The notes under the pieces are model-generated. The model had not been told where the DNA came from and did not search any database. It was given only the letters and a program-made list of their open reading frames with translations. Positions 15,291 to 29,805 of a stretch of DNA of 45,337 nucleotides are shown piece after piece (the stretch's first letter is position 1; every line of letters starts with the position of its first letter). The DNA is taken from positions 1-45,337 of the forward strand of contig CALCGD010000165.1 in the NCBI GenBank assembly GCA_937900875.1. Direction: 5' to 3'. The position numbers were made by a program, and so were the translations under genes. The DNA is from an uncultured Flavobacteriales bacterium. GTDB lineage: Bacteria > Bacteroidota > Bacteroidia > UBA10329.

Positions 15291-18200
15291 TTAACGGAAA
15301 ATGGTGATTGTACCGAGCTTATTGAAGGATATTCCACGGTACCAAACCAAGTCTATTTTATAGGTATAGGCGCCCTGCTGAACCTCTTTACCTGTTTCAC
15401 GGTGGGTACCATCCCACGATTCTTTTACGTTAAAGGTTTCCCATACGAGTTTGCCCCATCGATCATAAATCTGCATATGCCATTCGGTAATTCCTTTCTC
15501 CTTAATCTCAAACACATCATTTATACCATCACCATTTGGGGTAAAAGCGGTTTGAATAAAGAAGGTTTCCTGCTCCCAAACTCTATATGGAATAACAAGT
15601 GTGTCTGGGCAGCCAATTTCTCTCATTACAATAAGTTGTGCATTGTAAAGACCAGAATCCAAGAATATCCCCTCAGCATGCCACTCATTATCTACCGAAT
15701 AAAAATACGGTCCGCCAAACGGTGGTTCTATGCTAAAGAGCCAATGTGTTGAATCTTCCTCTGCATTTAAGCTCGCATTCCAAAATTGCACAAGTGTATC
15801 TGGCAACTGAAGTTCATCTGGTTCGAAGTAGAAATCAGCGATTGGATGAGGCCGAACCTCCATTGCAATCTTTGCTGAATCTCTACATCCCGTAATTGTA
15901 TTTACAACATGTTGGGTGATAACGTACCAGCCGGCTTCGTCAAACGTATACTCAACTATATCTTCAACACTTCCGTCTACTTCAATGGTTACATCCTTAT
16001 CGTTAAAATGGTAGTACCAGTTGGTAATATCAATATCTGCTTTAGATGTATCCATAAATAGAATTGGCAAACCTGTGCAAACAACATTTGTGTCAACATA
16101 GAAACCAGCAACTGGGGAGCGATGTACCGTGACATTGATTGATTGAGCCACTGCATCACATTGGTCCACCGAATAGACGGTTAAGTCAATGGTATAAATA
16201 CCTGGCTCATTAAAAGTGTGGTAAGGGTTTTGAAGGTTACTTGTGTTGGATTCTGGGCCTGAATTTGGGTCGCCAAAACTCCACTCCCATGAAGCCGCAT
16301 TTACCGAATTATCATAAAACCGAATTTCGGAGGAATCACAAATCTCTGTTTCAAGCGTGGTAAAAGCTGCGGTCGGAACAATGAGTGGTTCTATAAGATT
16401 TGGGACTACCAACGTGTCAGTGAACACTCCGTTTCCAGCCGAAAGCGTAATTGTGTATGGTCCAATGCCCGAATAGGTATGAACCGGATTTTGCTGATCG
16501 GATAAAAGTCCGTCTCCAAAATCCCATTCCCATTCATTCGGGTTACCTACTGTAGTATCGGTAAATGTCACCGTTGTTGAACCACATTGCGCATCAACAA
16601 CGTAGGTAAATCCAGCATAGACGTATGGCGGAAGAATAATATCAACTGCTACATCGCAAATGGTGGAACAGCCAAATGTATCTGTCACTTCTACGTTGGC
16701 ATTGTATAGTCCTGTACCTCCATATAAATGCGAAGGACTTTGTTCAATAGATGAACCTCCATCTCCAAACTGCCACATAAATTCGAATGGTGCAGTTCCT
16801 ACGGACATTTGAGCATCGAATCCTGTTTCGGCTCCGAGGTAACTATTGGTGACGTTGCTACAGTCGACAACCGGATTTGGATGAACTATTACGGTTATGG
16901 TTTCCGAATTCACGGTAGGTGTAATCGGACAAGGATAAGAACTCGCCATTCTTACATAAACTTGATCTCCATTATTAACGAAGGCAGGAGTATAAGAAGG
17001 TCCGATTCCGCCCGACACTCCATTTAAGAACCACTCGTAGGTTGGACTATTTCCTCCAGCGTAGGGAACAGCACCAAAGGTGATTGTTTCTCCTTCGCAA
17101 ATTTCAGTTGAAGTTGCGGTGATGAATACATCCGGCTCAACCACTGGCATAACTACCACATAATGGGTATCTGGCTTAGCCCAACCACAACAAGGTGATT
17201 CTGACTGCATAACAACCATATAGGTTCCGACTTCATTATAGGTATGCGATGGTGTTGCTTGCGTACTTGTGTTATTGGCTCCAGTCGTTGGGTCTCCAAA
17301 ATTCCACCGGTAGCCTAATACGTTAAAACTTGTTGGCCAAGTAGAGGAGAAGTTTACCACATCTCCTGGGCAAATTGTATCAGCAGCTTGGATGGTTGGC
17401 AAGTAAGGAGTTCCATCAATAAATATGTTTACAAACTCTGACAAGAAATACGGCACACCATTGGAAACCATGGTCAAATCAAAAGCTCCCATTGTAGTAT
17501 ACTGAGCTTGCGTGCTTTGGCCAACAGTGTTAATTGGCACTGTACTACCCTCGTAGAACCATTCAATGATTCCATTTGCATTGGTGGTGTAATAAATGTC
17601 TGAATACGTACAGCCCGTTACACCAAGTTCAACTTCTGGTTCAACGTTAGCAGCTAAACTTGTTTGTACTGTTTGAATTCCAGTAGGTTCTTCATAAAGC
17701 GGTTGGCTTACCCCAGGTGCGCCATTACCACCATTTCCGCCATCGCCACCAGCAGTTCCATCGCCACCTTGTCCGCCTTGTCCACAACCTTGACCGCCCC
17801 AGCCACCAAGTCCACCTTGACCACCAAGTCCACCAGGAAAACCACCGACTCCACCAATGCCTGGCATTCCTGAATTAAGCACGCAATCGTTTAGTACACC
17901 TCCTGTTCCATTATTGGTGATATATATACCAAAAGAACCACCGCCACCGCCACCAGCAAAAGCACCAGTACCAGCTTGACCACCTTCACCACCACCACCG
18001 CCACCTGGTCCAGATCCATTATCGCCAAAAAGTGCACCACCGTGAGAACCGCAGCCACCGCCACCGCCTCCACCGCCACCATCTACTCCGTCTACTCCAT
18101 CTTCTCCGTGACCTGGAGTGAAAAATCCGTTTATGTTGCTTGGAATTCCGTCTAATCCATCTGCTCCATCTGCTCCCGGAGGAGCTGCGTCAACACCATT

Positions 18201-19058
18201 TTGTCCGTAATTGACAACGCCTGCTGTGCAAGAACCAATCAAGAAAATGCATGGGCTTGGAGTGGCATTTTCCCATCCTGGACCACCAACACCTCCGACT
18301 CCAGGATTTGGTCCTAAACCGTTTTGTCCGTTTTGTCCGTCATAGCCTTCTCCCCAATCAATATTCCAAGGAGGCCAAAAATCTGCATCTGCTCCTTCTG
18401 GTCCACCATTTCCACCGTTTCCCCCGGCAGATGCTCCTCCTCCCCAAGAATTTCCTCCTGCTCCGCCCGCATAATTGCCATCTCCACAATCATTACCATT
18501 TTCTCCTACAAAACCGTCAACTCCTGTAATTCCATCCCATCCTGGGTTTCCATTTAAACCGTTGGCACCATTTCCAGCTGTCGACCGTATTCTACTTAGT
18601 GAGTAATCAGAGCAACCATTTAAATAAATACCACAAGTGGAAGAGCTTGGTTCTTGCGCATTATCCACTAAAACCGAAATGTCGTGTAAATGAAAATTTG
18701 AAATATTTGTAGCCGCTATTCCAAAAATACTGACCGAAGAAGGAGCTGTATTGTCTCTATGAAATAGAGTTTGTGCATTATTTCCCTTAACCCATGTAGT
18801 TGGATTGTAACCGCCTTCAATCGTTACTCCCTGAACTAGATGCAACGTGTCGGACAGCGGGTAGGTTCCCTCGGCCATTCGAATATGATCGACTCCTGGA
18901 ACTACGCTGTTTATGGCATTTTGAATCGAGGTTGGCGATGCTTTGGTTCCACTTCCGCTACCATTGGGAGAGACATAAAAGATATTGCACTCTTGGGCAT
19001 AACCAGTCGCGATAAATGCAACAAATAACACTCCAATAAGGCTCGCTCTCTTCAACAT
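15291..19058 (-). CDS. Giant secreted protein: beta-helix-like start, collagen-like Gly repeats, PKD domains, CHU_C C-terminus
   Basis: 1255 residues. Signal peptide 1-22 (ending ATGYAQ). Residues about 25-160 resemble a DUF1565/right-handed beta-helix start (IFYVSPNGSGSGTKASP, IRMAEGTYPL, VTIEGGYN). Residues about 162-449 are Gly-rich and collagen-like (GNGANG, GPGGGGGG, GGQGGDGTAGG), broken near 376-396 by GSFGIYITNNGTGG. PKD-type domains with W.FGD motifs lie near 580-620, 756-793, 839-876 and 919-962. The last 90 residues (TAFTPNGDGINDVFEI, YDRWGKLVWE) form the gliding-motility-associated CHU_C domain used for T9SS export. It is a tandem paralogue of the next gene upstream, from which it is separated by one base. 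It is probably a surface or matrix structural adhesin; this is inference. Confidence 0.88.
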   Translation of the reverse strand: MLKRASLIGVLFVAFIATGYAQECNIFYVSPNGSGSGTKASPTSIQNAINSVVPGVDHIRMAEGTYPLSDTLHLVQGVTIEGGYNPTTWVKGNNAQTLFHRDNTAPSSVSIFGIAATNISNFHLHDISVLVDNAQEPSSSTCGIYLNGCSDYSLSRIRSTAGNGANGLNGNPGWDGITGVDGFVGENGNDCGDGNYAGGAGGNSWGGGASAGGNGGNGGPEGADADFWPPWNIDWGEGYDGQNGQNGLGPNPGVGGVGGPGWENATPSPCIFLIGSCTAGVVNYGQNGVDAAPPGADGADGLDGIPSNINGFFTPGHGEDGVDGVDGGGGGGGGGCGSHGGALFGDNGSGPGGGGGGEGGQAGTGAFAGGGGGGSFGIYITNNGTGGVLNDCVLNSGMPGIGGVGGFPGGLGGQGGLGGWGGQGCGQGGQGGDGTAGGDGGNGGNGAPGVSQPLYEEPTGIQTVQTSLAANVEPEVELGVTGCTYSDIYYTTNANGIIEWFYEGSTVPINTVGQSTQAQYTTMGAFDLTMVSNGVPYFLSEFVNIFIDGTPYLPTIQAADTICPGDVVNFSSTWPTSFNVLGYRWNFGDPTTGANNTSTQATPSHTYNEVGTYMVVMQSESPCCGWAKPDTHYVVVMPVVEPDVFITATSTEICEGETITFGAVPYAGGNSPTYEWFLNGVSGGIGPSYTPAFVNNGDQVYVRMASSYPCPITPTVNSETITVIVHPNPVVDCSNVTNSYLGAETGFDAQMSVGTAPFEFMWQFGDGGSSIEQSPSHLYGGTGLYNANVEVTDTFGCSTICDVAVDIILPPYVYAGFTYVVDAQCGSTTVTFTDTTVGNPNEWEWDFGDGLLSDQQNPVHTYSGIGPYTITLSAGNGVFTDTLVVPNLIEPLIVPTAAFTTLETEICDSSEIRFYDNSVNAASWEWSFGDPNSGPESNTSNLQNPYHTFNEPGIYTIDLTVYSVDQCDAVAQSINVTVHRSPVAGFYVDTNVVCTGLPILFMDTSKADIDITNWYYHFNDKDVTIEVDGSVEDIVEYTFDEAGWYVITQHVVNTITGCRDSAKIAMEVRPHPIADFYFEPDELQLPDTLVQFWNASLNAEEDSTHWLFSIEPPFGGPYFYSVDNEWHAEGIFLDSGLYNAQLIVMREIGCPDTLVIPYRVWEQETFFIQTAFTPNGDGINDVFEIKEKGITEWHMQIYDRWGKLVWETFNVKESWDGTHRETGKEVQQGAYTYKIDLVWYRGISFNKLGTITIFR

Positions 19059-19059
19059 C

Positions 19060-22000
19060 TTATTCGATCAGCACAAATGGGAATGAATGTTCGTCATTGT
19101 TTGTACGCAACTTGAGGACGTAAGATCCCCTAACAAGTTGCGTCAAATCGAACCGGTTATTGTTTATCCCTGGAGATAATTGAATCTGTTGATCAAGAAC
19201 AAGTTTACCCGTTGCGTCCAAAACCCAGCAACTTACCGCTCGATTCTCAGCCGAATAAACAGCCAATTCTATCCAATCGCTAGCTGGGTTTGGATAAACC
19301 ATGGCCTGAAGATCATTGGTCAATTCACTAATTCCAACATTAACACTAGATCCCAAAATGATGCTATCAGTACATCCATAAACATTGGTAACCCATAGCG
19401 TAACGTTATATGCTCCATTACTGGTAAAAACGTGTATTGGGCTTTGCTCCGAGCTAAAGTTATTTGGTCCAGAATTTGGGTCTCCGAAGTTCCATGACCA
19501 ACTATCAGCAAAAATTGAGTTGTCTGCAAATTGCACTGTATCGCTTCCTGTTTCAGGATTTATTTCATAATTGTGGAAATTGGCGACTGGCGATGGATTC
19601 ACCACGACCTGACTAGCAATTGATAAGGAATCATTTCCGTTTCCAGCATAAACCCATAATGTTACATCATACGTTCCAGCGGTGTTATAGGTGTGAGCAG
19701 GACTCTCGGCACTTGAACCGCTACCATCTCCAAAACTCCAATAATTGGATACTGCATTTTCACTCAAATTATGAAACTGAACATTAAATGGCGCACATCC
19801 ATTGAGGGTATCAACTATAAAGTCGGCAGATAAATTTGGCGACACCGTCATGTAAGTTTGGCAAGAAACTGAACACCCTAATGAATCTTGAACATCTACG
19901 GTGGCTGTATATACACCTGCATTTTGATAGATATGCTCTACTGTTGCTCCAAAACCGAGAGAGCCATCTCCAAACGACCAGTAATATTCAAAAGGCGCTA
20001 ATCCACCTGTGGTAACTTCAACTTCGAAATACGTAGGCTGTCCAGACACAAATGAATCTGCGGAACAAATAATTTCTGGAGGTGGAATAACCGTAACTGG
20101 AATAGAATTAGAAACAGCAATTTCTCCTGTTGCGCATCCGAGTGAAGAAGTTACTTCGCAGACTACTTCATCTCCATTAAGCAACTGATTGGTAGTGAAA
20201 ACAGGGCCAGATCCGCCAGCTGGAGTTCCATTAATTAACCAAGTATAAGTTGGAGTTGGGCCAACATTTTCAGCAGTAGCTGTAAATGTCACTTCGGTTA
20301 GTTCGCAAACAGTATTGGTTGTGTCTGCAAATTGTGTTTGAATTGCTGTTGAAGGAAGCACTATAGAATCAACCACAATCATAATTGTATCCGTAAAAGA
20401 TTGACCACAGCATTCTGTTTCTGTTGTGAGCGTTAATTGATAAACCCCAGCAGAATCCCAAACAACACCAAGCAAATCGTAATAGTTAGGACCGTTGTAA
20501 ACAACCGTGTCTCCAACAACATTGTTTAGGGTCCAGATGTAATTGTTTGCAGAAATAGAACTATTAAAATCGGAGATATCTCCAACACAAAGCTCCGTAG
20601 GACCAGTTTGAATCTGTGGATCTAATGCTGGAACCACCGCATGAATATCTATGTAATCTGTATATGTAAATGCGATGCCATTAACGACTAATGTAAAAGT
20701 CTTAAACCCGGGAGTAGTAAAATGCGCCACTGCGTCCTGACCTAAGGCTGTTGACGGTATAGATCCGGCACCAAAGAACCATTGAAGGGTTCCGGTAGCG
20801 TCTGTACTAAAGGTGACAGGCGCATTTGTACAGCCTCCAAATTCAACATTTACAATTGGCTGCGAGAGACCATAAATATTTTGCAAAATCATAGGCTGTC
20901 CTCCTGGTCGCTGATACAATTCATCAGAAATACCATTAGAACCTGTTCCTCCCTGACCACCAGCACCTCCTGTACCACCATCACCCCCACTGCCGCCTGC
21001 ACCGATATCACATGCGATAAAAAGCGCCCCACCTTCTCCTCCAGGACCTCCCATACCACCGTCACCACCAACACCCCCAGGACCTCCGAATCCAGCAAAA
21101 CTTGATTGCATTTCACAATCCTTCATCACACCATTAAAACCGTTATCCCAAACGAAAACACCGAAAGAGCCACCAGCTCCTTGTCCTCCTCCTCCCCCGA
21201 GGCCACCACCTCCACCTTCACCACCACCAGCGCCACCAGCACCAGAACCATTGCTATTGGACGGAATTGTATCTGCAGAAATGAAGGGCGGTATTTCAGG
21301 AATGGCAAACCACAAAATGCCTCCTTGAGAGCCGCCTCCGCCTCCGCCTCCGCCTCCTGAAGCAGTTCCGCCAACTAAACCAGCAGTTCCAGCGCCAGGC
21401 GCAAAAAAGCCACCACCAAAAGCAAATCCACCTGGAACCCCAGGTAATCCAGGAACTCCATCTGCTCCATCTCCACCAAATTCACCATCATTTGCTTGTG
21501 TGCGATCGCATTGAGTAGATATTACGGTTGTAAATATTTCTTGACCTCCAGTTCCAGCGTATCCCGCTCCAGGTCCTTGTCCACTTTCCCCGTCATAACC
21601 AGGAAAAGCCTCCCCTCCAGCAGGAAATACATACGTGCCTCTTTCTCCTCCCCAGCCTCCTTCACCACCCATATTACTTCCAGGAAACGAACAACATCCG
21701 CCTAAACCACCATGTCTATTGCCTCCAGCATCTTCCTCACCAGGTTGGCCATTCTCACCTGCTGAACCTGCTGGCCCCGCAGACCCAGGAGACCCAGGAC
21801 TTCCATTTCCTCCATTACCGGCAATAATCTTGCAGCGAACTATGTCATAGTCAGCGCAGTTATTGAGGTAAAGACCATATGTAGTCACACCCTGACCTAA
21901 AGCATTTGCAGTACGAATTGTTAAATCTTGCAGCCTAAAATTGGATTGCCCCAAGCATAAAACCGCAATTAACCTTGGCGGGCCGAGCTGGACATTACTT

Positions 22001-22380
22001 GGGTCTCTAAATAGGGTTGTTACAGAAGAGTTGTCCTTTATCCAATTACCATTAAATCCGCCAATTAATTGAGCATTACTTGGGATAACCAACTCTTGGG
22101 TAAGTACATATGTACCAGATTGCAGGTAAATTTTGTCAGAGTTACCCCCAAGCATCGAAATGCCGGTAAGCAAATCAACTGGGTCGTCAGATTCACCGCT
22201 GGAGCTTGAAGAACCAGTAACCGCAACGTAAATCACATCAGAAAAATCCTGGCTACCCAATCCCGTACATGTTTGAGCCAAAGCAGGTTGGCTCAAAAAC
22301 AGGACTATCAATGACAACAAAAAAGCTAGTGCTTTATTCAACTTGATTTCAAATATTTTATCGCGCATAAAAAATGCCAT
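19060..22380 (-). CDS. Large secreted protein: beta-helix-like start, collagen-like Gly repeats, PKD domains, T9SS type A sorting domain
   Basis: 1106 residues. Signal peptide ends at QPALAQ; the MRDKIF codon at 22368 is an equally good start. Residues about 45-180 match the paralogue's beta-helix-like start (IYVAVTGSSSSSGE, IYLQSGTYVL, LIGGFNGNWIKD, YGLYLNNCADYDI). Gly-rich collagen-like stretch at about 182-485 with GxP and GGxGG units, interrupted near 402-425 by GSFGVFVWDNGFNG. PKD-type domains lie near 787-830, 875-912 and 957-998 (SFGDG, NFGDPNSGP). The C-terminus (VYPNPASDWIEL, LDATGKLVLD) is a type A sorting domain, not CHU_C. It is the first gene of the three-gene unit. The upstream gap of about 200 bases should hold its promoter, but I could not read a clear minus-strand -7 box. 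Confidence 0.88.
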   Translation of the reverse strand: MAFFMRDKIFEIKLNKALAFLLSLIVLFLSQPALAQTCTGLGSQDFSDVIYVAVTGSSSSSGESDDPVDLLTGISMLGGNSDKIYLQSGTYVLTQELVIPSNAQLIGGFNGNWIKDNSSVTTLFRDPSNVQLGPPRLIAVLCLGQSNFRLQDLTIRTANALGQGVTTYGLYLNNCADYDIVRCKIIAGNGGNGSPGSPGSAGPAGSAGENGQPGEEDAGGNRHGGLGGCCSFPGSNMGGEGGWGGERGTYVFPAGGEAFPGYDGESGQGPGAGYAGTGGQEIFTTVISTQCDRTQANDGEFGGDGADGVPGLPGVPGGFAFGGGFFAPGAGTAGLVGGTASGGGGGGGGGSQGGILWFAIPEIPPFISADTIPSNSNGSGAGGAGGGEGGGGGLGGGGGQGAGGSFGVFVWDNGFNGVMKDCEMQSSFAGFGGPGGVGGDGGMGGPGGEGGALFIACDIGAGGSGGDGGTGGAGGQGGTGSNGISDELYQRPGGQPMILQNIYGLSQPIVNVEFGGCTNAPVTFSTDATGTLQWFFGAGSIPSTALGQDAVAHFTTPGFKTFTLVVNGIAFTYTDYIDIHAVVPALDPQIQTGPTELCVGDISDFNSSISANNYIWTLNNVVGDTVVYNGPNYYDLLGVVWDSAGVYQLTLTTETECCGQSFTDTIMIVVDSIVLPSTAIQTQFADTTNTVCELTEVTFTATAENVGPTPTYTWLINGTPAGGSGPVFTTNQLLNGDEVVCEVTSSLGCATGEIAVSNSIPVTVIPPPEIICSADSFVSGQPTYFEVEVTTGGLAPFEYYWSFGDGSLGFGATVEHIYQNAGVYTATVDVQDSLGCSVSCQTYMTVSPNLSADFIVDTLNGCAPFNVQFHNLSENAVSNYWSFGDGSGSSAESPAHTYNTAGTYDVTLWVYAGNGNDSLSIASQVVVNPSPVANFHNYEINPETGSDTVQFADNSIFADSWSWNFGDPNSGPNNFSSEQSPIHVFTSNGAYNVTLWVTNVYGCTDSIILGSSVNVGISELTNDLQAMVYPNPASDWIELAVYSAENRAVSCWVLDATGKLVLDQQIQLSPGINNNRFDLTQLVRGSYVLKLRTNNDEHSFPFVLIE

Positions 22381-23317: not shown

Positions 23318-23593
23318 ATGAAAGTGACTTTGGAAATTACCATGTATCCATTAACCGATGGGTACAAGGAAGCTGTAAAAGATTTTCTTCGAAGATTGAA
23401 TAAATGTGAGAACATTGAAGTCATCACCAACGGAGTAAGCACGCAGGTTTTTGGTGAATATGATGCTGTGATGAAGGCATATTCCGACTCATTGAAGCCA
23501 TCGATGGAATCTGGAGTTGCGATTGCAGCTGTTTCCAAGATTATCAATAGTCATTTGCCGCCCGACCGTTGGGATACGAGTCAATGGAGTTAA
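23318..23593 (+). CDS. Thiamine-binding MTH1187/YkoF-like protein
   Basis: A 91-residue protein of the MTH1187/YqgV-YkoF superfamily. It starts with the beta strand KVTLEITMYPLTDGYKEAV, then FLRRLNKCENIEVITNGVSTQVFGEYD, which contains the characteristic STQVFGEYD motif, and ends with the second strand SGVAIAAVSKII. Family members bind thiamine or hydroxymethylpyrimidine and often sit beside thiamine transporters. Here the next gene is a PnuC-type transporter, overlapping by 10 bases, and the TPP riboswitch lies 3.8 kb downstream. A cytoplasmic carrier or sensor of thiamine is the best inference. Confidence 0.85.
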   Translation: MKVTLEITMYPLTDGYKEAVKDFLRRLNKCENIEVITNGVSTQVFGEYDAVMKAYSDSLKPSMESGVAIAAVSKIINSHLPPDRWDTSQWS

Positions 23594-24171
23594 GTTCCAT
23601 TTTGGAATATGCGGCCATTGGATTGGCCATTGCTTACGTAATTCTTGCAGCCAAAGAGAGTATTTGGTGTTGGTATCCAGCATTTGTTAGCTCAGGCATT
23701 TACGTTTACCTCACCTATTCAGCTAGCCTCATTGGCGAATCGTTCATCAGCGTATTTTATGTAGTGATGGCCGTATATGGTTGGTGGCAATGGAAATTCG
23801 GAAATCGAAAGGATGGTAAATTGAACATTGCCGAATGGCACACCACACATCACGTTAGAGCAATTTTGTTGGGATTTGTTTTTGCAGGCGCACTCGGCAA
23901 GGGATTCGAACTGATTTTTGATTCGGCCATGCCGTATTTAGATGCGTTTACCACTTCATTTAGTCTTATTGCTACGTTTATGGTTACGCGTAAAATTCTG
24001 TCCAATTGGATTTATTGGATTGTAATAGACGCCTTCAACATTTACCTCTATTGGAGCAGGGGTTTAGAACCAACTGCTGGACTTTACGCTGTGTACACTA
24101 TCCTTGCATTGGTCGGATTTATTAGTTGGTACAAAGAATGGAAAGTAGAGCGAAGATTTTTGCATGCGTAG
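23584..24171 (+). CDS. PnuC-family vitamin transporter (probably thiamine, PnuT-like)
   Basis: A 195-residue membrane protein with about seven helices. Start chosen at MELSSILEYAAIG (23584); an upstream start at 23569 would lengthen the overlap with the thiamine-binding gene. PnuC features: WCWYPAFVSSGIYVYLTYSASL, the WWQWKFG segment, and the late NWIYWIVIDAFNIYLYWSRG. PnuC proteins facilitate uptake of nicotinamide riboside, thiamine (PnuT) or riboflavin, trapped by a partner kinase. The neighbouring thiamine-binding gene and TPP-controlled receptor favour thiamine. The NadR-like kinase next door leaves nicotinamide riboside possible. Confidence 0.85.
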   Translation: MELSSILEYAAIGLAIAYVILAAKESIWCWYPAFVSSGIYVYLTYSASLIGESFISVFYVVMAVYGWWQWKFGNRKDGKLNIAEWHTTHHVRAILLGFVFAGALGKGFELIFDSAMPYLDAFTTSFSLIATFMVTRKILSNWIYWIVIDAFNIYLYWSRGLEPTAGLYAVYTILALVGFISWYKEWKVERRFLHA

Positions 24172-24665
24172 GCCCTGAAAGCTCAGGTAAAACCACCTTA
24201 TGCAATCAGCTTGCTCACCATTTTGGCGGAGCCGTTGTCCCTGAATTTTCGAGAGAATACTTGAACAATAGGCAAGACAAATACGAACCTTACGATTTAC
24301 TTACAATCGCTAAAAAGCAACTTGAGCTAGAGAATCGAATCATCTCAGAAAATGATCAACCCGTTTTTTGCGACACGGATATCCTGGTAGTGATGGTCTG
24401 GCATCAATTCAAATACCGAAAGCGAAACAAGGAAATTGAAAAGCTTTTTGACCTTCAGCAACCCAGAAAGTACCTTCTCACTTATCCTGATTTGAAATGG
24501 GAACCAGACCCATTGCGCGAAAATCCGAATGACCTGCTAGCAATTTTTCGACTATTCGAGATTTCGCTCAAAACAATCGGAGCTGATTATCGAGTGATTA
24601 AAGGCCATGATGAAATACGATTGACCAATGCTATTGAGGCGGTTAATCAATTGAAATTGAATTAA
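24138..24665 (+). CDS. NadR-like P-loop kinase (candidate thiamine or nicotinamide riboside kinase)
   Basis: A 175-residue AAA_28/NadR C-terminal-domain protein. I start at the ATG 24138 (MESRAKIFACVG); a TTG at 24126 would add four residues. Walker A is GPESSGKTTL near residue 12. Then come VVPEFSREYLNN, VFCDTDILVVMVWHQF (the Walker B-like segment of nucleoside kinases) and YLLTYPDLKWEPDPLRENP. In NadR this domain phosphorylates nicotinamide riboside and traps it after PnuC uptake. Here the gene overlaps the transporter by 34 bases, so the pair is translationally linked. Given the thiamine context, its real substrate may be thiamine; no residue visible to me decides this. Confidence 0.85.
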   Translation: MESRAKIFACVGPESSGKTTLCNQLAHHFGGAVVPEFSREYLNNRQDKYEPYDLLTIAKKQLELENRIISENDQPVFCDTDILVVMVWHQFKYRKRNKEIEKLFDLQQPRKYLLTYPDLKWEPDPLRENPNDLLAIFRLFEISLKTIGADYRVIKGHDEIRLTNAIEAVNQLKLN

Positions 24666-26064: not shown

Positions 26065-27324
26065 ATGAATTCTGAAAGATTCATCAACTTCCTAAAAACC
26101 CTTGGCCCAGGAATTCTTTTTGCAAGCACCGCAATAGGCGTGTCCCATTTGGTTCAAAGCACACGGGCTGGTGCCAATTTTGGGTTTGCCTTAGTTGGTT
26201 TTATCATTGCGGCTAACCTGTTCAAGTACCCATTTTTTGAATACGGAAGTCGGTATGCTAATGCCACCGGAGAGAGTCTGATTGATGGCTACAAACGAAT
26301 AGGAAAATGGATGCTTTGGCTCTATTTCATTATTACAATAATCAGTATGCTTTTCGTTTCAGCTGCTGTTGGCGCTGTTACTTCCGGATTTCTTCAGAAC
26401 CTATTTGGAATTACATCTTGGGGTATTTACGCCACCATTGCGCTATTTGCAATCTGTTGTGCAGTATTAATGAGCGGACGATACAGCCTTTTAGATTCCT
26501 TGATAAAAGTTATCGGAGCCGTTCTTTTGGTTTCAACACTTTTCGCATTCGTTCTGGCTCTTTTTAAAGGACCAAATCCGAAAATGCCTGATTTCATTGC
26601 ACCCAATATTTGGGATGAGGGCAGCATGCTTTTCATTATTGCCCTAATGGGTTGGATGCCAACGGCAGTTGACCTAAGCGCATGGAACAGTCTTTGGACT
26701 TTGGAACGTATCAAACAAACCGGCTACAAACCGAGCATGAAAGAAACTTTAGCTGATTTCAACTTTGGTTATATCGTATCTGCAGTTTTATCCATCTGTT
26801 TTGTAACACTTGGGGCGTTCATGCTTTACGGCACAGGAACTGAATTACCTGATAGCAGTGGCGCCTTTGCCCATTCAATTGTTGGTCTGTACACCAATTA
26901 CATTGGAGATTGGAGCTACATCATAATTGCAACCGCAGCTTTTAGCATCATGTTTGGAACTTGCATTGCCGTTTTTGATGGTTTTGCTCGAAGTTTTGAA
27001 CGAACCATTGAGCTCCTTTTTCTTCCTGATGAGGTAAATATCAGCACGAGTAAGGCATACAACTACTCACTTGCAATTATTGGAATTGGTGCGTTTCTGA
27101 TAATTTTCCTATTCGGAAACCACATGAAAACACTGGTTGATTTGGCCACTACAATCAGCTTTTTAATCGCGCCTCTAATAGCTGTTATCAACTTCAAATT
27201 AGTTACAGGAGACCACATTCAGAAGGAACATCAGCCTGCCACTTGGCTAAAAGCATTGAGTTGGCTCGGCATTTTATTTTTAACGGGATTTGCCGTTTAC
27301 TTCCTATACATCAAAATCATTTGA
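26065..27324 (+). CDS. Nramp-like transporter lacking the DPGN metal motif
   Basis: A 419-residue LeuT-fold protein of the Nramp (SLC11) superfamily with about 11 helices. The first helix aligns with Nramp TM1 (GPGILFASTAIG..., then RAGANFGFALVGFIIAANL), but the DPGN metal-binding motif is replaced by GVSH. In TM6 the usual MPH reads MPT (GWMPTAVDLSAW). The Asp and Asn ligands for manganese or iron are thus gone, leaving the Met, so transport of a classical divalent metal is doubtful. It starts one base after the AtoE stop. Its own stop codon overlaps the -33 element of the receptor promoter. Confidence 0.82.
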   Translation: MNSERFINFLKTLGPGILFASTAIGVSHLVQSTRAGANFGFALVGFIIAANLFKYPFFEYGSRYANATGESLIDGYKRIGKWMLWLYFIITIISMLFVSAAVGAVTSGFLQNLFGITSWGIYATIALFAICCAVLMSGRYSLLDSLIKVIGAVLLVSTLFAFVLALFKGPNPKMPDFIAPNIWDEGSMLFIIALMGWMPTAVDLSAWNSLWTLERIKQTGYKPSMKETLADFNFGYIVSAVLSICFVTLGAFMLYGTGTELPDSSGAFAHSIVGLYTNYIGDWSYIIIATAAFSIMFGTCIAVFDGFARSFERTIELLFLPDEVNISTSKAYNYSLAIIGIGAFLIIFLFGNHMKTLVDLATTISFLIAPLIAVINFKLVTGDHIQKEHQPATWLKALSWLGILFLTGFAVYFLYIKII

Positions 27325-27352
27325 TTCTTAAACTCTTTTCCGTTTAACTTTG
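27321..27352 (+). promoter_or_regulatory. Promoter for the TPP-controlled TonB receptor
   Basis: TTG at 27321-27323, 21 bases, then TAACTTTG at 27345-27352: an exact match to the Bacteroidota -33/-7 consensus. The -33 TTG overlaps the Nramp stop codon (27322-27324). Transcription should start about 5-8 bases after 27352, almost exactly where the riboswitch aptamer begins. Confidence 0.8.
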
Positions 27353-27356
27353 CCGC

Positions 27357-27432
27357 CATCAGGGGTGCTCGAAAATCGGGCTGAGATAATACCCTAAAAC
27401 TTGATCCAGGTAATGCTGGCGGAAGGAAGATG
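27357..27432 (+). ncRNA. TPP riboswitch (THI element) with the start codon inside P1
   Basis: All hallmark parts of the thiamine pyrophosphate aptamer are present. P1 is CATC 27357-27360 with GATG 27429-27432. P2 is GGGT 27363-27366 with ACCC 27391-27394. P3 is a short CTCG/CGGG stem, 27368-27371 and 27377-27380. The conserved CTGAGA lies at 27381-27386. P4 is CTT 27400-27402 with AAG 27423-27425. P5 is CCAG 27406-27409 with CTGG 27416-27419, enclosing the TAATGC segment. The 3' strand of P1 contains the ATG (27430-27432) of the receptor gene, and the purine-rich GGAAGGAAG just before it is also within the aptamer. Ligand binding should hide the start codon directly; no separate expression platform is visible. 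Confidence 0.95.
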
Positions 27433-29805
27433 AAAAGACAACTATTTATTGCAGCGCTATGCCTGTGCGCCTCACAAATACAGGCTCAATCTATTTCGGG
27501 AACCGTTTATTCTGCTTCAGATAGCGCTGCTATTCCTGGCGTGAATGTTACCGTTTCTGGAACTTACAGCGGTACGTTTACAGATACTGAAGGGAAATTC
27601 CACATCCGTTATGGCAAGGCAGATTCCGTCAAACTGAATCTAAGTTTCATTGGTTTTGATAACCGAGAAATTGCCGTTGTCGCAGGACAGAAAAAGCTAC
27701 ATCAGATTTACCTAACAGCAACGTCTTACGAGAAGGATGCTGTGGTTGTGAGTTCAACCCGAGCAAACAGAAATACCGCAACGGCATACACAGACGTTGA
27801 TTTAGAAACAATCGAGACTCAAAATTTCAGTCAAGATATTCCTGTATTGTTGGAGCTAGAACCAAGCGTGGTTTCGACTTCGGATGCAGGAGCGGGAGTT
27901 GGATATACGGGAATCAGAATAAGAGGAACTGATCCAACCCGTATTAATGTTACGCTGAACGGTATTCCCATCAACGATTCAGAATCACATGGCGTTTTCT
28001 GGGTAAATATGCCCGATCTGGCCTCTAGTTTAGATAACATTCAAGTTCAGCGCGGGGTTGGAACAAGCAGCAATGGAGCGGGCGCATTTGGTGCCAGCAT
28101 CAACATGCAAACCAATACGGTTCGTAAGAAATGGTATGCTGAATTGGTGAATGGGTATGGTTCTTTCAACACTTGGCGCCACTCGGTTTCAGCAGGTTCT
28201 GGATTGATTGCCAACAAATTCACAATTGATGCACGTTTCAGTCGAATTTCGTCTGATGGGTATATAGACCGAGCTACTTCTAGTCTTTGGTCGTGGTACG
28301 CGTCAGCGGCTTATCATGGCAAGAAAACCATGATTCGTTTTAACGCAATTGGCGGAAGAGAACGAACCTACCAATCTTGGTGGGGAACGCCACAGGACTC
28401 ACTTGAAACAAATCGAACTTACAATTATTACAACTACGAAAATGAGGTTGATGATTATGGGCAAGACCATTATCAACTCATCATCGCACATGAATTTGAC
28501 CGAAACTGGAACTTCAATCTGAACGGGCATTACACCAGAGGAAAAGGCTACTTCGAGCAATTAAGAGAGAAAGACGATTTGTCTGACTATGGATTGGAAA
28601 ACGTAATTATTGGGAATGACACAATCACCACTTCCGATATTATTCGAAGACGTTGGTTAGACAATCATTTCTACGGATTCACCTTTGCCGTAAATTATAC
28701 GGGGAAGAAGTTAAACGCAACATTTGGTGGTGGCTGGAATCAGTATTTAGGAAAACATTTTGGCGAAGCAATCGATTCTGAATTCACAGAATACGAAGAA
28801 TTAAGCCAACGGTATTATGAAGATGACGCACGCAAAAACGACATCAGCGTTTACATCCGAGCCAACTATCAATTTCACCCTAAAGTAAATCTGTTTGTCG
28901 ATTTACAGCATAGAACCATTGAATACAATTTCGTAGGGCCAGAAGCTGATTTATTTGGTCGAATTAAAACTACTGAGCAAAGCATCAATTGGCACTTCTT
29001 TAACCCAAAAGTTGGTTTCAACTTCGATTTAAACAGTCGAAATCGTGTTTATACTTCTCTTGCAATGGGCAACCGTGAGCCTGCTAGAAAAGACATCGTT
29101 GAGGCAACACAACTTTCTCGTCCGAAGCATGAAACACTTTACGATTGGGAATTGGGTTACGAACGAAAGTCGCGCTCGTATTCCGTAGGACTAAATGCTT
29201 TTTGGATGGTTTACCAGAACCAGCTTGTACCAACTGGACAAGTGAATGATGTGGGTGCCTACACCAGTCAAAATGTAGATTGGAGCGACAGATACGGGTT
29301 GGAATTAATGTGGAGCGTGAACATCCTCAAGAATCTAAACCTTGCAGGTAATTTCACGTGGAGCCAGAGCAAAATCTGGGATTTCACGGAATACGTAGAT
29401 GATTATGATAATGGCGGTCAGGTGGAGATTAATCACGGCCTGACGGATATCGCATTCTCGCCAAACTATATTGTTGCTGCAAATCTCACCTACGAGCCGA
29501 TCAAGAATTTGCGTGCTTCATTCATCACAAAATACGTTGGAGAGCAGTTTTTAGACAACACATCTAACCGTGATCGAATGCTTAACGATTACGTCACCAA
29601 CAACTTACGTTTGAGCTACAATTTTCATTGGAAATTCTTCAAAGAAATAGGTATTGGTGTTCAGCTAAATAACATCTTCAACCAGTTTTATGAATCTAAC
29701 GGTTACACCTTCTCCTATATATATGGCGGAGAATCTACCACGGAGAATTACTACTATCCGCAAGCAGGATTCAACTTTATGACCATGTTAACGCTTAAGT
29801 TATAA
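27430..29805 (+). CDS. TonB-dependent outer-membrane receptor, TPP-regulated (probably thiamine uptake)
   Basis: 791 residues. Signal peptide to SQIQAQ. A carboxypeptidase D regulatory-like domain lies at about 20-100 (SISGTVYSASDSAAIPGVNV, GTFTDTEGKFHI). The plug is at about 105-235 (VVVSSTRANRN, GIRIRGTDPTRINVTLNGIP, FWVNMPDLASSLDNIQVQRGVGTS, GAFGASINMQT). The rest is a 22-strand barrel ending in the aromatic-rich C-terminus FNFMTMLTLKL. Control by a TPP riboswitch makes thiamine or a thiamine precursor the likely ligand, with the PnuC-type transporter just upstream as the inner-membrane partner. No in-frame ATG, GTG or TTG lies before 27430 within the aptamer, so the start is firm. Confidence 0.95.
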   Translation: MKRQLFIAALCLCASQIQAQSISGTVYSASDSAAIPGVNVTVSGTYSGTFTDTEGKFHIRYGKADSVKLNLSFIGFDNREIAVVAGQKKLHQIYLTATSYEKDAVVVSSTRANRNTATAYTDVDLETIETQNFSQDIPVLLELEPSVVSTSDAGAGVGYTGIRIRGTDPTRINVTLNGIPINDSESHGVFWVNMPDLASSLDNIQVQRGVGTSSNGAGAFGASINMQTNTVRKKWYAELVNGYGSFNTWRHSVSAGSGLIANKFTIDARFSRISSDGYIDRATSSLWSWYASAAYHGKKTMIRFNAIGGRERTYQSWWGTPQDSLETNRTYNYYNYENEVDDYGQDHYQLIIAHEFDRNWNFNLNGHYTRGKGYFEQLREKDDLSDYGLENVIIGNDTITTSDIIRRRWLDNHFYGFTFAVNYTGKKLNATFGGGWNQYLGKHFGEAIDSEFTEYEELSQRYYEDDARKNDISVYIRANYQFHPKVNLFVDLQHRTIEYNFVGPEADLFGRIKTTEQSINWHFFNPKVGFNFDLNSRNRVYTSLAMGNREPARKDIVEATQLSRPKHETLYDWELGYERKSRSYSVGLNAFWMVYQNQLVPTGQVNDVGAYTSQNVDWSDRYGLELMWSVNILKNLNLAGNFTWSQSKIWDFTEYVDDYDNGGQVEINHGLTDIAFSPNYIVAANLTYEPIKNLRASFITKYVGEQFLDNTSNRDRMLNDYVTNNLRLSYNFHWKFFKEIGIGVQLNNIFNQFYESNGYTFSYIYGGESTTENYYYPQAGFNFMTMLTLKL

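Follow-up and report, generated by a model that had tools for sequence, protein, structure and literature searches.

Riboswitches in which the start codon lies no more than 15 nt from the P1 helix were defined by Barrick and Breaker in 2007 as acting by "direct translation attenuation," with TPP riboswitches among the commonest users of this plan (PMC2258182). For the Bacteroidetes, the mode of action of TPP switches has been stated to be uncertain (PMC5613172). In transport operons of Bacteroides thetaiotaomicron with TPP switches upstream, mRNA levels did not change significantly with thiamine, which is what translational control predicts (PMC5613172), and an RNA-seq survey of 57 riboswitches found six transcriptionally active TPP switches, all in other genera, though Bacteroides data were included (PMC12121620). 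Two studies report that ribosomes of the Bacteroidia start without reading Shine-Dalgarno sites and that initiation depends on structure in the start region (PMC9976891, PMC6847099). Here we describe a TPP aptamer from an uncultured Flavobacteriales bacterium, encoded in a 45,337-nt stretch of DNA (the window; contig CALCGD010000165.1), whose P1 helix contains the start codon of a TonB-dependent receptor gene. We consider it likely that this leader is a translational OFF switch that works by direct occlusion and arose through loss of a strand-exchange platform; TPP binding, the OFF direction, and the level of control are all inferred from sequence.

The aptamer and its receptor gene

Rfam family RF00059 matched the window over the complete model (positions 1 to 105) with a score of 67.2 bits, above the gathering score of 54.3 (Table 1), and no second TPP aptamer was found in the genome assembly. 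A sequence-only reading of the window had proposed such an aptamer with a CATC/GATG P1, and both the aptamer and the exact helix were recovered: cmscan gave the identical register of four base pairs (C27357-G27432, A27358-U27431, U27359-A27430, and C27360-G27429). In alignments with the class consensus, P4 of the genus reads CUU/AAG instead of CCU/AGG, a compensatory change, and the P2-P4 junction of the window aptamer is one base shorter. The purine-rich sequence GGAAGGAAG before the AUG does lie inside the aptamer, as that reading noted, but it is mostly the 3′ strand of P4 together with the 3′ core that is conserved throughout TPP aptamers; it is thus no independent sign of a ribosome site, and we set it aside as a Shine-Dalgarno candidate. 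In direct attenuation the aptamer end supplies the ribosome-binding site; the end of the window aptamer is purine-rich, but this sequence is the P4 strand of the family, and the class barely uses Shine-Dalgarno sites (PMC6847099, PMC9976891).

Table 1. Positions of the features of the aptamer-receptor locus in the window
Feature	Position	Strand	Basis
TTG, possible -33 element; it overlaps the stop codon that ends the Nramp-like gene upstream	27321..27323	+	Sequence; also in G004, unclear in other congeners
Sigma-A -7 box TAACTTTG	27345..27352	+	Congener conservation
TPP aptamer (complete RF00059 match, flanks included)	27351..27445	+	cmscan, 67.2 bits, E 3.4e-11
Predicted start of the transcript, give or take a few nt	27357	+	Position of the box relative to the start in F. 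psychrophilum
P1 5′ strand CAUC	27357..27360	+	Sequence, cmscan
P2 (27361-27364/27392-27395) around P3 (27367-27371/27377-27381) and CUGAGA core	27361..27395	+	cmscan alignment
P4 (27400-27402/27423-27425, CUU/AAG) and P5 (27406-27409/27416-27419)	27400..27425	+	cmscan alignment
P1 3′ strand GAUG, holding the start codon (27430-27432)	27429..27432	+	Sequence, cmscan, congeners
TonB-dependent receptor; signal peptide, CarbopepD_reg_2 domain, and Plug domain	27430..29805	+	Pfam; orthologues with TPP aptamers

The AUG in P1 opens a 791-aa open reading frame (ORF) with no other in-frame start there, in agreement with the earlier claim that it is the receptor's only possible start. The aptamer is tied to thiamin through this TonB-dependent receptor, whose orthologues also bear aptamers: a TPP aptamer lies upstream in 15 of the 16 orthologues tested outside the genus, and the two congener assemblies without an aptamer, both incomplete, also lack a receptor orthologue. 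By association, the gene is probably best annotated as a receptor for thiamin or a precursor. Neither ThiC nor the catalytic domain of thiamin pyrophosphokinase (PF04263) was found in the nine genomes sampled from the genus, which are also the whole sample for the family and order and six of which come from assemblies at least 90% complete; this suggests that the genus relies on imported thiamin or a precursor.

Elsewhere in the window (positions 23569 to 24665), a PnuC-type transporter gene is followed by a gene for an AAA_28 (NadR-like) kinase. Among 80 receptor-orthologue loci, 26 to 27 have relatives of each, which frequently lie immediately upstream and give the order pnuC, AAA_28, TPP aptamer, receptor, and since no PF04263 thiamin pyrophosphokinase was found in the genus, the AAA_28 protein is a candidate thiamin kinase. 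Two neighbouring large secreted proteins (1,255 and 1,106 aa) that contain PKD-like repeats and extended Gly-rich stretches are encoded on the minus strand at positions 15291 to 22380.

P1, promoter, and platform in the genus and class

An AUG at the 3′ strand of P1 is kept in all seven aptamer-bearing congeners, the window included; it is the receptor start in five and the start of a leader ORF in two. The opposing strand is CATC in G000 (the window), G004, and G006 and CAATC in G001, G005, G007, and G008. Pairs on the first two AUG bases (U-A and A-U) are Watson-Crick in all seven, the AU of the 5′ strand being kept throughout, whereas the outer pair, C27357-G27432, becomes an A·G mismatch in four and forms in only three. 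G006 has GAAUG as its 3′ strand, which still permits CAU/AUG pairing. The sequence-only reading had named covariation of CATC and GATG, with the ATG kept, as a check. The AUG was invariant, but no compensatory change in P1 was found among the seven congeners, and pairing of the entire AUG, as opposed to its first two bases, fails in the four with the mismatch. Conservation of P1 fits pairing of the first two AUG bases, short of proof.

When the aptamer helices were enforced in Vienna, the 4-bp P1 formed in G000 and G004, with an unpaired probability of 0.04 to 0.06 for the AUG, whereas in the four species with a 3-bp P1 and the A·G mismatch, no P1 was predicted from the aptamer helices alone and the AUG was mostly open. 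In several species, free folding already paired part of the AUG with coding sequence downstream, so energies alone give no clear switch. Because TPP and tertiary contacts are not modelled in them, nearest-neighbour energies neither prove nor exclude one.

Upstream, the TTG is separated from TAACTTTG by 21 nt (N21); the pattern TTG-N21-TAnnTTTG was found once in the window, with 0.99 occurrences expected, and is no commoner than chance. The box itself is credible because all seven congeners keep it 8 to 10 nt ahead of the GGGG core, as TAnnTTTG in six and with TTTA in the seventh. Since Flavobacterium psychrophilum has its sigma-A box at positions -12 to -5 (PMC9723704), we place the transcript start at about 27357. 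The start at 27357 to 27360 proposed earlier is consistent with these coordinates and with the conserved box, but it is not peculiar to this locus: a TAnnTTYG box ends 5 to 25 nt before the aptamer core in 108 of 155 Bacteroidia leaders, compared to 2.2% in shuffles and 5 of 155 at 65 to 85 nt. An aptamer-abutting promoter was therefore rejected as a special feature. In most of the 155 leaders, the box ends 8 to 20 nt before the core, which predicts that most Bacteroidia TPP transcripts begin at the 5′ strand of P1.

A tree of receptor N-termini recovered the genus as monophyletic (support, 100/99), with a clade A of only five species, the window's among them (G000, G001, G004, G005, and G008; 100/100), and a clade B of two (G006 and G007; 97/96). 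In clade B, the P1 AUG opens a leader ORF, 28 codons long in one species and 29 in the other, that ends in a stop codon overlapping the receptor start (ATGA), an overlap that is suggestive only, since its estimated chance is ~0.09 per species (frame, 1/3; open frame, ~0.26). Clade B leaders also keep a 9- to 10-bp strand exchange in which aptamer AUCAGGGGUG can pair with GCCCUUGGU (G006) or, at the same distance, CGCCUCUGGU (G007). The energies of -12.6 and -13.5 kcal/mol were equaled by 3% and 1% of dinucleotide shuffles, respectively, and next to this pairing, ahead of the receptor start, lies a GGUCA...UGACC hairpin. In the five clade A species, by contrast, the aptamer 5′ strand found no partner in the following 100 nt that was better than in shuffles, 29 to 93% of which did as well; the downstream complementary strand typical of thiM-type switches is thus seen in clade B but not in these five. 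A terminator elsewhere, which the sequence-only reading had named as counterevidence, was also sought, and no terminator-like site was found on the plus strand at 27250 to 27800. Like other direct attenuators, the window leader has neither terminator nor separate platform, and the proposed lack of an expression platform holds for clade A, in contrast to clade B and the outgroups. Separately, the clade B leaders (L019, L027, and L052) may encode a riboswitch-controlled, translationally coupled leader peptide with the platform inside its ORF; database record L052, labelled Chryseobacterium gleum, holds the G006 sequence and so belongs to clade B.

Among 147 Bacteroidia genomes, with 155 aptamers in total, P1 and the gene start were typically ~60 nt apart, for receptors and ThiS alike, and in only about 10 did a receptor or ThiS start within 15 nt of P1. 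The clear cases were the five clade A genes, L149 and L167 (offset, 0), L233 (+2), L247 (+10), and the ThiS gene of L204 (+2); a few more near-P1 ORFs were ambiguous N-terminal extensions. Crocinitomicaceae-type orthologues carry a conserved platform of ~60 to 80 nt in which TTGTTCTTGTT forms a hairpin with the opening codons of the gene, ATGAAAACAAGAA. Since most of the class has ~60 nt between P1 and the start and orthologues have a conserved platform, the window architecture is derived, and the comparison supports loss of a downstream strand-exchange platform as its origin. L149, L167, L233, L247, and L204, in which the gene start abuts the aptamer, belong to other lineages and are apparently independent direct switches. 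In L055, L056, L060, L061, L101, and L128 (Crocinitomicaceae type), an TTAGCCCCTTGTTCTTGTT...ATGAAAACAAGAA hairpin is built on the first receptor codons.

An AUG lay over the P1 3′ strand in 43 of 148 outgroup aptamers, compared to 29.9 expected from column composition (maximum of 42 in 500 shuffles) and uncorrected for kinship; outgroup leaders that ran in-frame into the gene start or ended at it numbered 12, compared to 6.0 expected, again uncorrected for kinship. These excesses are suggestive, and we do not claim that P1-AUG leader ORFs form a family across the class. Complementarity of outgroup platforms to the aptamer over at least 6 Watson-Crick bases (18 of 81; 6.9 expected) is a general sign of platforms only. 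The AUG-in-P1 survey covered TPP switches of the Bacteroidia and examples from Rhodococcus, which is the sole actinobacterial comparison because no Rfam hit in Nocardia farcinica L263 passed the threshold.

Proposed mechanism and alternatives

We propose that the mRNA begins at or beside the 5′ strand of P1 and that its aptamer ends on the receptor AUG (~+74). At low TPP levels, the 3′ part of the aptamer would be open and the 30S subunit would initiate without a Shine-Dalgarno site. Bound TPP would lock P1, P2, P4, and P5, leaving ~-73 to +3 folded, whereupon initiation would fail and less thiamin receptor would be made. Folding of the aptamer itself thus probably blocks translation; pairing of the AUG in P1 would strengthen the block, firmly with a 4-bp P1 (the window and G004) and weakly with a 3-bp P1. 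Loss of the platform would have produced this design. Direct occlusion is the most economical account because TPP-dependent folding would close the region from ~-73 to the start and initiation in the phylum depends on structure around the AUG.

How far the AUG itself matters is a separate question. In ordinary direct translation attenuation, the whole folded aptamer would exclude the 30S subunit and the pairing of the AUG would be incidental, an account to which we give nearly even chances. The broken outer pair in four of seven congeners points this way, as do the AUGs just outside P1 in other Bacteroidia (L149, L167, L233, L247, and the ThiS gene of L204) and ~10 nt past it in Rhodococcus thiC; however, the A and U of the AUG have Watson-Crick partners in all seven congeners, and the window and G004 have the 4-bp CAUC/GAUG helix. 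We hold more tentatively that the start codon itself serves as the P1 strand that switches, an arrangement that evolved by deletion of the platform and fusion of the receptor start to a pre-existing P1 AUG. If so, the sister species could have kept an intermediate, with a P1-AUG leader ORF and the old platform, a plausible but somewhat doubtful history.

The remaining accounts would replace direct occlusion altogether. Blocked translation can expose mRNA to Rho, so control might fall chiefly on mRNA amount, through Rho acting on untranslated mRNA or through a terminator elsewhere, and E. coli tbpA is indeed controlled at both levels (PMC11487190). We regard this as unlikely, since the plus strand at 27250 to 27800 has no intrinsic terminator and Bacteroides transport operons had no significant mRNA response (PMC5613172). 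A cryptic strand-exchange platform within the first receptor codons would parallel the one that clade B has in the equivalent leader stretch, and free folding does pair part of the AUG with coding sequence in some species, but pairing to the aptamer 5′ strand no better than in shuffles in five clade A species makes it quite improbable. Finally, the short P1 and the P2-P4 junction one base below the class consensus could mark a decaying aptamer with no regulatory function; the 67.2-bit score, the conserved CUGAGA and P4/P5 core, the compensatory change in P4, and retention of the aptamer in all congeners with the receptor make decay very improbable.

If the start codon does act as the switching strand, the locus would represent a form of direct occlusion that fits ribosomes working without Shine-Dalgarno sites. 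Its 74-nt leader, nearly all aptamer and ending on the AUG, offers a compact test of whether structure at the AUG alone can regulate such ribosomes, and the two sister clades offer a natural before-and-after of platform loss.

Comparison with known riboswitches

In principle, the switch type put forward in the sequence-only reading is not new: placing the start near P1 without a separate platform is direct translation attenuation as defined in 2007 (PMC2258182) and would place the window in the "direct occlusion" group (PMC10907184). The minimal design in that reading stands for the missing platform and not for the promoter at the aptamer edge, which is general in the class (108 of 155 leaders). 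The E. coli thiM, thiC, and tbpA TPP riboswitches are likewise OFF switches on initiation, as we infer for the window, but each relies on a separate anti-P1 or sequester segment (for tbpA, see PMC11487190). The Mycobacterium tuberculosis ppe2 riboswitch, with its translated upstream ORF (PMC11260477), resembles clade B in having a leader ORF that overlaps the gene start, with possible termination-reinitiation; its ligand is B12, however, and the leader ORF has been lost in the window's clade A. Closest in family, receptor type, and aptamer-edge promoter is the Bacteroidetes THI element (RF00059) before thiamin TonB-dependent receptors of the OMthi/BT2390 type, but other members of the class mostly have an expression platform of ~60 nt between P1 and the start, and the window has none. 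The Rhodococcus thiC loci share the direct-attenuation plan with an AUG ~10 nt outside P1. Whereas the purine-rich aptamer end was described as a substitute ribosome-binding site in direct translation attenuation (PMC2258182), in the window the AUG is itself P1 sequence. The start-near-P1 principle is thus already established, and the window differs in having the AUG, not a Shine-Dalgarno site, in P1.
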